From Armatimonadota bacterium (GTDB lineage Bacteria; Sysuimicrobiota; Sysuimicrobiia; Sysuimicrobiales; Kaftiobacteriaceae), in NCBI GenBank assembly GCA_020028455.1, contig JAHZOA010000002.1:1-47986 (forward strand): a stretch of 47,986 bases of DNA. Direction: 5' to 3'. Below are positions 23,030-32,387 of this stretch, piece by piece (the stretch's first letter is position 1; every line of letters begins with the position of its first letter). A program made the translations under genes and the position numbers. The notes under the pieces are model-generated. The model saw only the letters and a program-made list of their open reading frames with translations. It made no database searches and was not told the DNA's origin.

Positions 23030-24355
23030 ATGAGTCCCGTTCGGCTAAGGCTGCTGGCGTGGGTCGCAATGGCCGCGCTCCTGCTGGCGCCGCCGCCGCT
23101 TGCCGCGCAGTCGCCTGACGAGGCGGTTGCCCTCGTCCAGGAAGTCTTCACACGCCTCCGCGACGACGCACTCGCAGCGGCTGATGGTCCTTCGCTGTTG
23201 CGCGCTGCCGTGAGTGGCGTGCAGCAGGTCCTCGTGGGTACTTCCGCGGTTCCCATGGTTCCGGTGCTTTCAGGGATCGAAGATGAGGATCTTCGCGCCG
23301 TTGCGATGTACGTGGAGGCGGCCGTCAAAGCGGCTCCGGGCCGGAGCGAATTCGTCCTGTCCTCGGCGCTGCGGGCGATGGTGCGTTCGGTGGCCGATCC
23401 GGTCAGCGCTGTCTTCACGCCTGCTGAACTGGGCCGGTACATGGCTGACCTGCGAGGCGAGCACGGAACAATCGGCATGCAAGTAGATACGATCGGAAAT
23501 GCGATCAACGTTGTCGAGGTGGTGGACGGCGGCCCAGCGGTACGGGCGGGGATTCGCGTGGGAGATCACATTCTGGAGATCGACGGAACCTCGATCGACT
23601 TTCACTCTCCCGACGCGGTGCTCAGTCTTCTGCGAGGGCGGCTGGGATCGCCTGTGCTCGTTACCATCCGGAGAGGTTCGAGCCAACCGCAGCGCCTCTC
23701 GGTGATCCGTGAGCAGGTGCGGGAAATCCCGATCCGCGCGCGGATGCTCGAGCCGCGGGTAGGGTATCTTCGGCTCCTCGGATTTACCGAGCGCGCGCAC
23801 GAAGATCTGGCGCGCTGGCTCCTCCGTCTGAACGAGCAAGACGCGCGGGCATTGGTGCTCGATCTTCGAGAGAACGGCGGCGGTCTTGTAGAGGAAGCCG
23901 TGAATGTGGCGTCAGCCTTTCTTCCCCAGGGCGTCGTGGCGGTGGAAGAGGGGCGGCGCGGCCAAGTCACGCTCATCGTACGACCGGCGGCGCACCGGTT
24001 TGCCGGTCCTGTTGTGGTCCTGGTAAATCGCGGCACAGCGAGCGCTTCAGAAATCGTTGCGGGCGCGCTTCAGGATGCCGGTGTCAGCCTCGTGGGAGGG
24101 AGGACCTTCGGCAAAGGAACCGTGCAGACGGTGTACTTCCTTCAGGCAGGGTGGGGGCTCAGGATTACTACTGCGCGGTACAGGACGCGTGCGGGTCGTG
24201 CGATTGACGGTACAGGCCTGACGCCAGATGTGCCGGTCGTTCAGGCCGTGAATCAGGTCCAGGGTCCAGGCGATACCCAGCTTGAAATCGCCCGAGTTCT
24301 GGCCCGCAGGCGGCTGGAGTCCACGGGCCAGCGAGCTACCGGTCGGCGCTGGTGA
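23030..24355 (+). CDS. S41 family C-terminal processing peptidase with PDZ domain
   Basis: PDZ GIRVGDHILEIDGTSI; LDLRENGGGLVEEAVNVASAFLP; VNRGTASASEIVAGAL; GRTFGKGTVQ. Confidence 0.94.
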   Translation: MSPVRLRLLAWVAMAALLLAPPPLAAQSPDEAVALVQEVFTRLRDDALAAADGPSLLRAAVSGVQQVLVGTSAVPMVPVLSGIEDEDLRAVAMYVEAAVKAAPGRSEFVLSSALRAMVRSVADPVSAVFTPAELGRYMADLRGEHGTIGMQVDTIGNAINVVEVVDGGPAVRAGIRVGDHILEIDGTSIDFHSPDAVLSLLRGRLGSPVLVTIRRGSSQPQRLSVIREQVREIPIRARMLEPRVGYLRLLGFTERAHEDLARWLLRLNEQDARALVLDLRENGGGLVEEAVNVASAFLPQGVVAVEEGRRGQVTLIVRPAAHRFAGPVVVLVNRGTASASEIVAGALQDAGVSLVGGRTFGKGTVQTVYFLQAGWGLRITTARYRTRAGRAIDGTGLTPDVPVVQAVNQVQGPGDTQLEIARVLARRRLESTGQRATGRRW

Positions 24356-25680
24356 GTACATTACGAGAGGGCGCCGTCGAGGTCGTCCGGCGGTTGCGCG
24401 CTGGGGGATTCGCAGCATTTTGGGTGGGTGGCTGCGTGCGGGATCTTGAGATGGGACGAGAGCCGCACGACTACGATATCGTCACAGACGCGCGCCCCGA
24501 GCAGGTCGCATCGCTGTTTGATGATGCGGTTGCTGTGGGCGCGGAGTTCGGGGTCGTCGCCGTATCGTCACATGGCCATCAGTACGAAGTGGCAACGTTC
24601 CGCACCGAAGGACCCTATCTGGATGGTCGGCGTCCATCGTCCGTAAGGTTCGCGACAGCCGAGGACGACGTTCGTCGCCGCGATTTCACGATCAACGGGC
24701 TACTCCACGATCCTCTTTCCGGGCAGACGATCGATCACGTCGACGGGCGGCAGGACATTAAGCGGCGGATCATCCGGACGATCGGACCTCCGCAAGAGCG
24801 GTTCGCCGAAGACTACCTGCGCCTGCTCCGCGCTGTGCGGCTGGCCGCCGAGCTCGATTTTACGATTGAGCCCCAAGCATTCCGTGCCATCACCGCGCTG
24901 GCTCCTTCCATTGCACGGGTCAGCGCGGAGCGAATCCGGGACGAGTTGTTTCGCCTGCTTGTCGCGCCGGGCCGGAGCAAGGGCGTGCAGCTCCTCGACG
25001 AAAGCGGCCTCTTGAAGGTGATCCTGCCGGAAGTGGCGGCAATGAAGGGTGTGGAGCAACCTCCCGAGTTCCATCCAGAAGGTGATGTCTTTGTACACAC
25101 GGTCCTTGCATTGGGGCACCTTCGGAATTCCTCGCCGGAACTCGCGCTGGCCACGCTACTGCACGATGTCGGAAAGCCACCGACGATGACGCGAGAGGAC
25201 CGGATCCGTTTCAATAACCACGACGAAGTCGGCGCACAAATGGCAGAGTCCATTTGCCGGAGGCTCCGGTGTTCAAACGAGCAGATGGACCGAGTGGTCT
25301 CGCTGGTCAGGAATCACTTGCGCATCAAAGACCTTCCGAAGATGCGGCCGGCGAAAGCCGCCAGGTTCCTGCTGCAGCCTGACGCCGCCGACCACCTCGA
25401 GCTGCACAGAGTCGACTGTCTCGCAAGCCATGGGGATCTGAGTGTGTGGGAATGGGCGGTCAAAGCGCAGCAGGAGCTCGCGGCGACGAAGCCTCTGCAA
25501 GCCAGGCTGCTGAGCGGGGACGATCTTATAGAGTTGGGTTTACCGCCCGGACCAAAGTTCAAGGAAATCCTCGAGTACGTCGAGGATGCGCAGCTCGAGG
25601 GGCAGGTCAGTAGTCACGAGGAAGCCGTGGCTCTCGTCAGGCGAGTATTTCCGACCGGGCCGCGGTCGGGTCCGCGGTAG
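24352..25680 (+). CDS. CCA tRNA nucleotidyltransferase with HD domain
   Basis: FWVGGCVRDLEMGREPHDYDIVTDA, RRRDFTINGLLHD, LLHDVGKP. Confidence 0.95.
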   Translation: MSTLREGAVEVVRRLRAGGFAAFWVGGCVRDLEMGREPHDYDIVTDARPEQVASLFDDAVAVGAEFGVVAVSSHGHQYEVATFRTEGPYLDGRRPSSVRFATAEDDVRRRDFTINGLLHDPLSGQTIDHVDGRQDIKRRIIRTIGPPQERFAEDYLRLLRAVRLAAELDFTIEPQAFRAITALAPSIARVSAERIRDELFRLLVAPGRSKGVQLLDESGLLKVILPEVAAMKGVEQPPEFHPEGDVFVHTVLALGHLRNSSPELALATLLHDVGKPPTMTREDRIRFNNHDEVGAQMAESICRRLRCSNEQMDRVVSLVRNHLRIKDLPKMRPAKAARFLLQPDAADHLELHRVDCLASHGDLSVWEWAVKAQQELAATKPLQARLLSGDDLIELGLPPGPKFKEILEYVEDAQLEGQVSSHEEAVALVRRVFPTGPRSGPR

Positions 25681-26013: not shown

Positions 26014-27174
26014 TCAGTCGGGATCGTCAGCAGTGACGGCTGCTTCCCGCGTTGCGGCCGTTATCCCCTGACCGTTTCGCACCGCGAACTCGGGATCCAA
26101 CTTTCGCAGCCTAGCCACAATTCCGCCGTACTCGAGCTCTGACATGGGCAGCATCGCCGGTTCGAAGAAGCCTTGCCGGCGCATCTCAATGGCTTTCTCT
26201 GCGATCCGGTCCCGGACCTGATTCCAGAACGGATCAGCGAACAGGTCGACGGGCGCCGTGAGGATGCCATCATGCATCGAGAACCCAAGCGCTGAGACCA
26301 TCGGGCAGCAGAAGAACGTCGACGCCGGCGTGTTCATTGGAACCGGCATTAGCGGCAGGTTGTGGCTGCCGCGTGTGTCCCCGCCGACGAATGGCGCCAC
26401 CGCGAATGCCGGGCCGAACTCCTCGGTGGCCGGGAAGATCTTCTGCACCCGGATCACGGCCGGCGGGTCATCCTTTCCCACGTAGCGGCCCGCGATATTC
26501 CGCAGCCTCGTCGTACCGACCGCGGCCGCCTGTTCGTTGGGATACTTCCGAGACCAGATGGCCTCGATCGCATAGCGGTTCGTGTCACGTAGAAGGGAGG
26601 CAATATCGTACAGACGCTCGGGCGCTTCCAGCACAATCACCCGATCGCCTTCGGTGTGGTCCATGTCCATGATGTGGAAGGTGAAGCCGTCGTGCAGTCC
26701 TTCGGAGAGCATCAAGCCGGGAGAGTACATCGGGTCGGCGAATGCCAGGTACAGCGGCAGGTTGAACGCGCCTGGGCCACACTTGTCACCCAGCGTCACC
26801 ATGAACGCTTCGCTCGGCCTCTCATCCAGCTCAATCTCCGCGCTCCCCGGTCCGAGCCCCCGGACGTTACCCGAGAACGCCTCCTTAAGAAGGTCTTGTC
26901 CGGCGCCGTACAGACCTTGGCTCTTCGCCTTATCGGTGGCTTTGATGAGCGCGTCCCACGCCAGCTGGTGCACGTCCGGGCTATCTTGACCTTTCGCGTG
27001 GGTCATGATCATGGCGATGTCGTCGCCGGTGTGACACACAAACGCGTCGATCAGGAGTTTCTTGCGCTCCCGCTCGACGCGGTCTCTGACGATGCCCAAG
27101 ATCTCGGCGCTGGGCATGGTGTGGCCGCCGATCGCGCCGATGTCGGCCTTGATCACGCTGATAGTGACGCGCAT
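26014..27174 (-). CDS. fbp: Fructose-1,6-bisphosphate aldolase/phosphatase (archaeal-type bifunctional, class V FBPase)
   Basis: MRVTISVIKADIGAIGGHTMPS, GDDIAMIMTH, GDKCGPGAFNLPLYLAFADPMYSPGLML, GPAFAVAPFVGGDTRGSHNLPLMPVP. Confidence 0.95.
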   Translation of the reverse strand: MRVTISVIKADIGAIGGHTMPSAEILGIVRDRVERERKKLLIDAFVCHTGDDIAMIMTHAKGQDSPDVHQLAWDALIKATDKAKSQGLYGAGQDLLKEAFSGNVRGLGPGSAEIELDERPSEAFMVTLGDKCGPGAFNLPLYLAFADPMYSPGLMLSEGLHDGFTFHIMDMDHTEGDRVIVLEAPERLYDIASLLRDTNRYAIEAIWSRKYPNEQAAAVGTTRLRNIAGRYVGKDDPPAVIRVQKIFPATEEFGPAFAVAPFVGGDTRGSHNLPLMPVPMNTPASTFFCCPMVSALGFSMHDGILTAPVDLFADPFWNQVRDRIAEKAIEMRRQGFFEPAMLPMSELEYGGIVARLRKLDPEFAVRNGQGITAATREAAVTADDPD

Positions 27175-27450: not shown

Positions 27451-28275
27451 ATGATCTACCCTGAATCCGCGAGGGTCATCGCGCTCGTCAACCAGAAGGG
27501 CGGCTGCGCGAAGACTACCACGGCGGTGAATCTTGCCGCCTGCCTCGCCGTCAACGGTCATCGAACCCTCCTCGTCGACCTCGATCCCCAGGCCAACGCG
27601 ACCGTAAGCCTCGGCGTCGACCCCGGTAGCCAGCACCGCAACATCTACCATGTCCTGGTGGAAGTGGACCACGACGATGATGGCACGACTATACCGTCGA
27701 TTATCGTTCCAACCACCGTGGACAACCTGATGCTGGCTCCCTCCTCGATCGATCTCGCGGCCGCAGAACTGGAACTGGCCTCCCGCATCGGCCGGGAGCG
27801 GGCTCTGCGCAAGCGCATGGGCCCCGTGCTCTCAGAGTATGAATACATCGTCCTGGATACGCCCCCGAGCCTGGGAGTCCTGACGCTGAACGCCCTGGTC
27901 GCGGCCGACGCGCTGATCATCCCGATTCAGACGCATTACTACGCACTACTGGGGATGCGGCAGTTGCTGCGGACCTTGAAGATGGTGAGGGAGGAAGTGG
28001 GGCACAACGTCGAGATCCTCGGCGTACTACCCACGATGTACGACTCCCGGACGAACATCAGCAAGGAGATCTTACAGGGCATTCAAGACTTCTTTGGCGA
28101 GAAGGTCTTCGGCACCACGATCCACTTCAACATCAGACTGGTCGAGTCGTCGATGGTCGGCGTCCCATTGTTCATCCATGACAAAGCATCGCGAGGCGCG
28201 CAGGAGTATATGGCGCTGGCCAAGGAGGTCGTCAAGCATGCGGAAAGAACGCGAGGAGCTGCGGCGCGGACTTAG
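27451..28275 (+). CDS. parA: ParA/Soj family ATPase
   Basis: VIALVNQKGGCAKTTTAVNLAACLAVNGHRTLLVDLDPQANAT; YIVLDTPPSLGVLTLNALVAAD; start ATG 27451. Confidence 0.93.
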   Translation: MIYPESARVIALVNQKGGCAKTTTAVNLAACLAVNGHRTLLVDLDPQANATVSLGVDPGSQHRNIYHVLVEVDHDDDGTTIPSIIVPTTVDNLMLAPSSIDLAAAELELASRIGRERALRKRMGPVLSEYEYIVLDTPPSLGVLTLNALVAADALIIPIQTHYYALLGMRQLLRTLKMVREEVGHNVEILGVLPTMYDSRTNISKEILQGIQDFFGEKVFGTTIHFNIRLVESSMVGVPLFIHDKASRGAQEYMALAKEVVKHAERTRGAAART

Positions 28276-28642
28276 ATCGTTCATCGAGGACGCGTCGATT
28301 GAGCTAGCGGAGTTCACCAAAGGTGCTCCGGCGCCGCAGACACTGCCCCCGGCGCCCAAGCCTCTGCGGGAGCCGGCGCCGCCCGAGCGTCCGATCCTTC
28401 GCCTGGTGCGTGAGGCTCAACAGCAGGATGTCGACGCACCCAAACTTCTGGAGATGACGCTGCATCTCCCCAAGAAGGGTGTGTGCGCCGCCTACTACAT
28501 CAATAAACGGTGCTGGGAGCTCCCCGACGCGTTCTGCAACCATGCGCTGCATATCTGCAGGCTGCGCGAATGCCCCGTGTACAATCTCCATCGAGAAGAG
28601 ATGGAGGGGCGATTCGCGTCGAAGTTTCGGCACCTCTGGTAA
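28238..28642 (+). CDS. Uncharacterised 134-aa protein with Pro-rich linker and C-terminal Cys cluster, overlapping parA
   Basis: ATG 28238; CX8CX7CX6CX4C: KGVCAAYYINKRCWELPDAFCNHALHICRLRECPVY. Confidence 0.8.
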   Translation: MRKEREELRRGLRSFIEDASIELAEFTKGAPAPQTLPPAPKPLREPAPPERPILRLVREAQQQDVDAPKLLEMTLHLPKKGVCAAYYINKRCWELPDAFCNHALHICRLRECPVYNLHREEMEGRFASKFRHLW

Positions 28643-31009: not shown

Positions 31010-32302
31010 TTAGGGATACAGCCTGTTGAGCAGTCGAGGAAATGGAATCGTCTCGCGGATATGCTCGATCCCGCATATCCAGGCCACAGTTCGCTCGATC
31101 CCAAGCCCGAACCCGGAGTGGGGAACAGAGCCGTAGCGACGGAGATCGAGATACCACTGGTAGACATCGGTCGGAAGGTTGTGCTCGCGCAGCCGCTGCT
31201 CGAGGAGCGCAAGGTCATCGATCCGCTGTCCACCTCCAATGATTTCGCCATATCCCTCGGGGGCGAGCAGGTCGGCGGAAAGGACCACATCGTGCCGCTC
31301 CTGGTCGGGCTGCATGTAAAATGCCTTGCATTTTGCCGGATAGTGATGCACGAAGAGCGGGCGGTCGAACTGCGATGAGAGCATCGTTTCTTCATCCGCT
31401 CCGAGATCATCGCCCCAGGGCACCGGCTTGCCGGATTTCTTTAGCCGTTCGAGCGCCTCGTCGTAGGACAACCTGGGGAAGGGGGACTGAATGTCTTTGA
31501 GCTTTGCCGTATCTCGCTCGAGAGCGGCGAGTTCGTTCGTCCTGCGCTGCAGCACCCGGCCGACGACGGCGACCATCATCTCTTCAGCAAGCGCCATGTA
31601 CTCGTCCAGCGTCATGTAAGCAACTTCCGGCTCCAGCATCCAGAATTCGCTGAGGTGTCGCCGGGTCTTCGACTTCTCGGCGCGGAACGTAGGACCGAAA
31701 CAGTAGACCCGGCCGAAGGCCATCGCGTTTGCCTCGTTGTACAGCTGACCGGACTGCGTGAGGTATGCGGTACCGAGGTCGAAGTATGGCGTTTCGAAGA
31801 GGGTGGTCGTCCCCTCGACGGCGGCCGGGGTCAGGATAGGCGTATCCATCCGGACGAACCCTTTGCCATCGAGAAATTCAGCGCAGGCCCGGATGACCTC
31901 GGCGCGTACGCGCATCACGGCGTGCTGCCGGCGGCTCCGCAGCCACAGGTGTCGGTGGTCCATTAGAAACTCGACGCCGTGCTCTTTTGGCGTGATCGGG
32001 TAGGGCGCCGCGATCTGCACGACCTTCAGGTCCGTGAGCGAGAGTTCAACACCGCCGGGCGCTCGTTTGTCCTCGCGCACGAGGCCGCGAATGATGACGG
32101 AAGACTCCTGCGTGAGATTCTCCGCGAGCCCGAACGCGTCTTGGGATACGTCCTGTTTGGCCAGAACAGACTGCATGATCCCGCTGCCGTCGCGGATCTG
32201 GAGAAAGTGGATGCTGCCGCTGCTTCGTTTGTTGTACAACCATCCCTGGATCTCGACTTCTTCTCCCACGTGTGCGGCAGCGTCTTCAATCCGAATGTGC
32301 AT
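31010..32302 (-). CDS. asnS: Asparaginyl-tRNA synthetase
   Basis: [73 protein letters not shown]. Confidence 0.95.
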
Positions 32303-32387
32303 TGATGTCACCTCGCGCTGGCCGCTAGATTCATCGATGCACGATCATTACCTCCCCAGGGCCTCGGACCTCGGGAATTTGCTCGGG

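Follow-up and report, generated by a model that had tools for sequence, protein, structure and literature searches.

The parA2 locus in the Sysuimicrobiota

The window analysed here, a whole stretch of 47,986 nucleotides, belongs to Ca. Sysuimicrobiota, an uncultured phylum. It carries a parA-type gene (parA2) whose end overlaps the start of a second, shorter gene, referred to below as the partner. The pair and its relevant neighbors are:

24352..25680, + strand: gene of the CCA-adding enzyme type (PolyA_pol), conserved neighbor upstream
26014..27174, - strand: fructose-1,6-bisphosphatase gene (FBPase_3), a neighbor only in family f1 and some members of f4 and f5
27451..28275, + strand: parA2, Soj/ParA-type deviant Walker A ATPase of 274 aa from the phylum's orphan clade (PF13614, E=4.6e-58)
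27496..27522, + strand: deviant Walker A motif KGGCAKTTT of parA2 (residues 16-24)
28238..28275, + strand: overlap of parA2 and the partner gene, 38 nt
28238..28642, + strand: partner gene, encoding a 134-aa adaptor-like protein
31010..32311, - strand: asnS-type class II tRNA synthetase gene, conserved neighbor downstream

A preliminary description of this DNA had reported a parA with the Walker A sequence KGGCAKTTT, overlapped by a 134-aa open reading frame; its coordinates, strand, 38-nt overlap, and motif (residues 16-24) were all correct. It had also noted the absence of a ParB gene and a parS site nearby, and both absences were borne out: the ParB profile PF02195 matches only another contig of the genome, and the window contains 0 parS-like sites at ≤3 mismatches. 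The flanking genes, which it called metabolic, are so locally, but phylum-wide the conserved neighbors are mainly tRNA and translation genes. The recurrent order is mnmA, (S41 peptidase), cca, (FBPase), parA2, partner, HAD or pfk, asnS, rimP, nusA, infB, and rbfA, and it was seen, completely or partially, in each of the six families compared (f1-f5 and f7), as far as contigs extend. The parA2-partner pair thus occupies a constant chromosomal position next to translation genes, and its fixed synteny, together with a lack of plasmid or viral matches, rules out a mobile element or cassette. Among the loci compared, no third gene adjoins the pair in conserved order. No microcompartment genes were recognized among the conserved neighbors, and the conserved neighborhood holds no gene pointing to a cargo.

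Occurrence and linkage across the phylum

The partner was found in 41 of 43 Sysuimicrobiota genomes, including 27 of the 28 of good quality. Of the two genomes lacking a match, G021 is cut off by a contig end and retains just the beginning of the gene, and G031 is a 72% complete bin without a full ParA match. Beyond the phylum, a profile search of ~350 genomes returned 0 matches to the partner, and no recognizable homologous partner was located behind ~90 ParAs of 80 outside genomes searched. Linkage to parA, proposed earlier as a check, was constant, with ParA2 directly preceding the partner in 30 of 30 loci examined (L012-L041). The 38-nt overlap is identical in 27 of these loci, the exceptions being a different start (L025) and a longer ParA end (L033 and L035). 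Phylum-wide conservation rules out a spurious open reading frame as the source of the partner. The two genes form a real, phylum-wide, and apparently undescribed ParA-adaptor pair.

One bin contained a second parA2-partner copy with masked bases within the partner (L096, G007:C144), which probably reflects a strain mixture or contamination and not a paralog.

ParA2 is distinct from the ParA of the ordinary ParABS system

The best relatives of ParA2 in the PDB are ParA (8ray) and Soj (1wcv). Across 30 ParA2 sequences, the Walker A motif reads KGGCGKTT in 20 and KGGCAKTT in 10, and diagnostic residues are C19, S53, T137, T161-H162, H225-F226, and the S233-M235 region. Two basic residues, R200 and R/K229 (R200 and R229 in the window), align with the known DNA-binding residues R189 and R218 of Bacillus subtilis Soj, and a Phe occupies the position of Soj R215. 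ParA2 accordingly retains its nucleotide-binding motif and two DNA-binding positions. Phylogenetic analysis placed the ParA2 proteins in one clade, separated from other ParAs with support of 100/99-100. This clade does not fall within the group formed by ParA1 of the phylum and the other ParB-linked ParAs (group support 97/96), which rules out a recent origin of ParA2 by duplication of the ordinary ParA in the same genome.

Sysuimicrobiota also encode an ordinary partition system, as ParB was present in 28 of 28 good genomes. The canonical parABS of the window's genome, which the preliminary description had suggested looking for, was found away from the pair: ParA, ParB, and a parS-like site occur together on another contig (C119), which also carries the sole ParB_N domain of the genome. 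A genome-wide search for parS-like sites at ≤2 mismatches returned only one, located beside the canonical parAB. Likewise, in G023, ParB is located at 1,027 kb and the partner at 2,690 kb of one 3,154-kb contig.

Several outside genomes encode KGGCGKT ParA-type ATPases with, as judged by eye, a C-terminal stretch resembling an AMPK-type glycogen-binding domain, followed by a second open reading frame (L166, L185, and L221). These three fall into one clade (support 100/99), which also contains L191, where the C-terminal stretch is absent.

The partner is a three-part protein with five invariant cysteines

The partner has a three-part layout:

28238..28321, + strand: N-terminal charged helix (residues 1-28) with a ParB-like LRRG[LIV] motif, the proposed ParA-activating peptide
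28322..28468, + strand: Ala/Pro-rich linker, a proposed disordered tether (pLDDT <50 over most of the linker)
28469..28639, + strand: C-terminal Cys domain (residues 78-134, ~57 aa)

The cysteine pattern described earlier is exact (C83-x8-C92-x7-C100-x6-C107-x4-C112), and the partner contains no further Cys. Conservation was scored on 30 distinct full-length partners plus 32 domain sequences. None of the five cysteines varies within the phylum, and every full-length protein contains exactly five. The histidines attributed to the cluster, by comparison, vary among homologs and are not conserved. Invariant residues of the C-terminal domain comprise C83, C92, W93, C100, N101, C107, C112, and P113, and the terminal W134 is near-invariant (Trp in all homologs but one). 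The domain is mildly basic. The linker spans 38-152 aa in 30 aligned partners, with longer open frames in family f7. In an AlphaFold model of the partner, both ends are helical and the middle is of low confidence; overall confidence is medium (mean pLDDT 67), as it is for the Cys domain modeled alone (pLDDT 72), which is predicted to be short and helical.

No ParB domain was detectable in the partner, and none of 30 members matched a Pfam or NCBIfam family; searches against PHROGs and the PDB also gave no family match. Foldseek searches with the partner models, including that of the Cys domain, yielded nothing significant, and no homologs were present among plasmids and viral contigs. The Cys domain resembles the two-CW domain (NF045718) in its CW-x6-C stretch and further Cys, although an NCBIfam HMM search up to E=10 gave no match to NF045718 in 30 partner members. 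A literature search for Cys-rich or Fe-S ParA partners found nothing relevant. The best reading is that the partner represents a new adaptor family, with a Cys domain outside the families of the libraries searched here.

Judging from the spacing of its cysteines, the C-terminal domain probably binds a metal, and structural Zn would be more likely than Fe-S; the metal or Fe-S module suggested for the partner at the outset is plausible. The five conserved cysteines, together with the conserved C19 within the Walker A motif of ParA2, could also fit a metallochaperone-like NTPase from the NUBPL/NifH side of the superfamily, with the partner as its cluster scaffold or client. We consider this very improbable, as ParA2 is a far better match to Soj/ParA than to NUBPL/NifH profiles, and the KGGCGKT variant is found in ParAs elsewhere too.

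Could the mildly basic domain instead bind DNA? The partner might be a centromere protein of the Zn-finger type, in which case the pair would partition the chromosome as a second system, acting at a site of its own. Membership of ParA2 in the Soj/ParA family is consistent with this, as is the gene order, since partition cassettes typically consist of parA and then an adaptor gene. However, there is no iteron-like array around the genes and no parS near them, the partner matches no known DNA-binding fold and has no plasmid or viral homologs, and the chromosomal neighborhood is fixed across the families examined, unlike that of a mobile cassette. We therefore regard a centromere function as distinctly unlikely.

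Similarity of the partner N-terminus to ParB

Residues R5, L8, G11, and R13 are invariant in the N-terminus of the partner. ParBs encoded in the same genomes as the partner start with RRGLGRGLGALIPG-like sequences, and their N-termini (RRGLGRGLGALI) resemble that of the partner. A 12-position PSSM, built solely from ParBs outside the phylum, selected the REELRRG[LIV]R..I window in 25 of 30 partners. The median partner score was 8.2, versus 23-32 for true ParBs, and a score of 8.2 was also reached by 2.6% of 190 unrelated open reading frames. We consider the likeness moderate, and it may represent convergence on the same ParA surface.

According to published work, ParA/MinD ATPases are acted on by the short, positively charged N-termini of their partners, the remainder of which binds cargo (PMC7993993; PMC10241942), and in PomX an Ala/Pro-rich stretch follows the N-terminal peptide (PMC7993993). 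With its charged N-terminal peptide, Ala/Pro-rich linker, and conserved C-terminal domain, the partner shares the layout of the ParA-activating adaptors ParB, PomX, and McdB.

A proposed positioning system and its possible cargo

The preliminary description had suggested positioning of the ParA/MipZ/McdA type. Of the two outcomes it had named as refuting, non-conserved cysteines and a ParB domain in the partner, neither was observed. Invariant cysteines, a partner without a ParB domain, constant linkage, and a parABS located elsewhere together make ParA-type positioning with a non-ParB adaptor well supported. The more specific comparisons did not hold: the MipZ profile (PF09140) aligns to ParA2 at the P-loop only (37 bits, best stretch residues 9-47), with no full-length match, and the Walker A motif of McdA differs.

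We think it likely that the pair is a two-gene, nucleoid-based, ParA-driven intracellular positioning system with a new adaptor, for which we infer N-terminal activation, nucleoid binding, a metal, and movement. ParA2 would dimerize with ATP and bind the nucleoid, with the partner as the adaptor that stimulates its ATPase activity. Docking on the ParA2 dimer is proposed to occur through the charged N-terminal helix (REELRRG[LIV]R..I) and to lead to hydrolysis and release, while the Ala/Pro-rich linker would act as a flexible tether. The five-Cys domain, probably held together by a metal, would bind the cargo or oligomerize. Repeated binding and release could then move or space the cargo over the nucleoid, as in a diffusion ratchet.

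Regarding the cargo, motility genes have been reported in just two families of the phylum (PMC11604079), and flagella or chemotaxis arrays alone are therefore unlikely. A cargo in cell division would explain conservation in both motile and non-motile families. None of the 43 Sysuimicrobiota genomes had a MinC_C match above the cut-off and FtsZ was present in 28 of 28 good ones, so that the phylum seems to be without the usual Min regulator and placement of division is one candidate, on circumstantial evidence. Under this reading, which amounts to the positioning system proposed above with a specific cargo, the adaptor would bind FtsZ or a different protein acting early in division, and ParA2 would set the position of that protein relative to the nucleoids, as in PomXZ- or MipZ-like systems. 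An outside genome (L131) offers a possible parallel in an orphan-type ParA whose gene overlaps that of an FtsZ with an LKRG-containing basic N-terminal extension, although the relationship between this ParA and ParA2 is insecure. Moreover, no ftsZ occurs near parA2 in the loci examined (~400 kb away in G023), no obvious ParA-binding-like N-terminal extension was identified on the FtsZs of the phylum that were checked, and many bacteria without MinC have no such system. Overall, division-site positioning is possible but unlikely. A further variant appears more doubtful still: the adaptor might sense metal or redox state as a metal- or Fe-S-containing protein, so that some universal cargo, for instance the division machinery, would be positioned in a redox- or metal-dependent manner, in place of the missing Min system.

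The L131 locus (L131:5399-7550, G318:C26), where the ParA gene overlaps ftsZ, encodes the basic extension MKKKSLKRGFSERLDFKRELIRDTTKDL on FtsZ, as if a ParA-binding peptide had been fused to FtsZ itself. A sister relationship between the L131 ParA and ParA2, with FtsZ being the cargo, was considered and rejected: a quick tree gave support of 97, but careful trees did not resolve the relationship, and only 3 of 24 diagnostic residues are shared.

Because the partners of orphan ParAs have no sequence in common, they are difficult to recognize. In the present case, a gene overlap identifies the partner, which is conserved throughout the phylum. The pair offers a defined case for probing which other objects bacteria place by means of ParA, and is a candidate mechanism of cell organization in the MinC-lacking Sysuimicrobiota.

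Comparison with known positioning systems

PomX-PomZ of Myxococcus xanthus likewise combines a ParA-type ATPase with a non-ParB activator composed of a charged N-terminal peptide, an Ala/Pro-rich stretch, and a separate C-terminal domain (PMC7993993). The C-terminus of PomX, however, is a filament-forming coiled coil, and the system includes a third protein, PomY, whereas the partner has what is modeled as a short five-Cys helical domain and no third gene was seen adjoining the pair.

The McdA-McdB system of carboxysomes also comprises an ATPase and a cognate small adaptor acting via a basic N-terminus (PMC11321042; PMC10241942), although the Walker A motif of McdA is SGGQGKT (PMC9178275), compared with KGGCAKT in ParA2. 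A conserved C-terminal Trp is common to both adaptors. The cargo of McdAB is a microcompartment, whereas no microcompartment gene was recognized near the parA2 pair. McdB is not known to have a Cys cluster.

PpfA/TlpT and other orphan ParAs are similar in that an additional ParA, encoded apart from parABS, has a partner other than ParB (PMC9178275). PpfA serves chemotaxis clusters, whereas the parA2 pair is found among translation genes, and its partner matches no known family.

Chromosomal ParABS (Soj/Spo0J) shares with the pair the ParA family, the deviant Walker A motif, and a partner N-terminus resembling the L-G-[RK]-G-L peptide of ParB. It differs in that the partner described here is without ParB_N or parS and the genomes keep a separate, ordinary ParAB. 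Maintained besides that ordinary ParA/ParB pair, the parA2-partner system looks like a phylum-specific one for placing an object within the cell.
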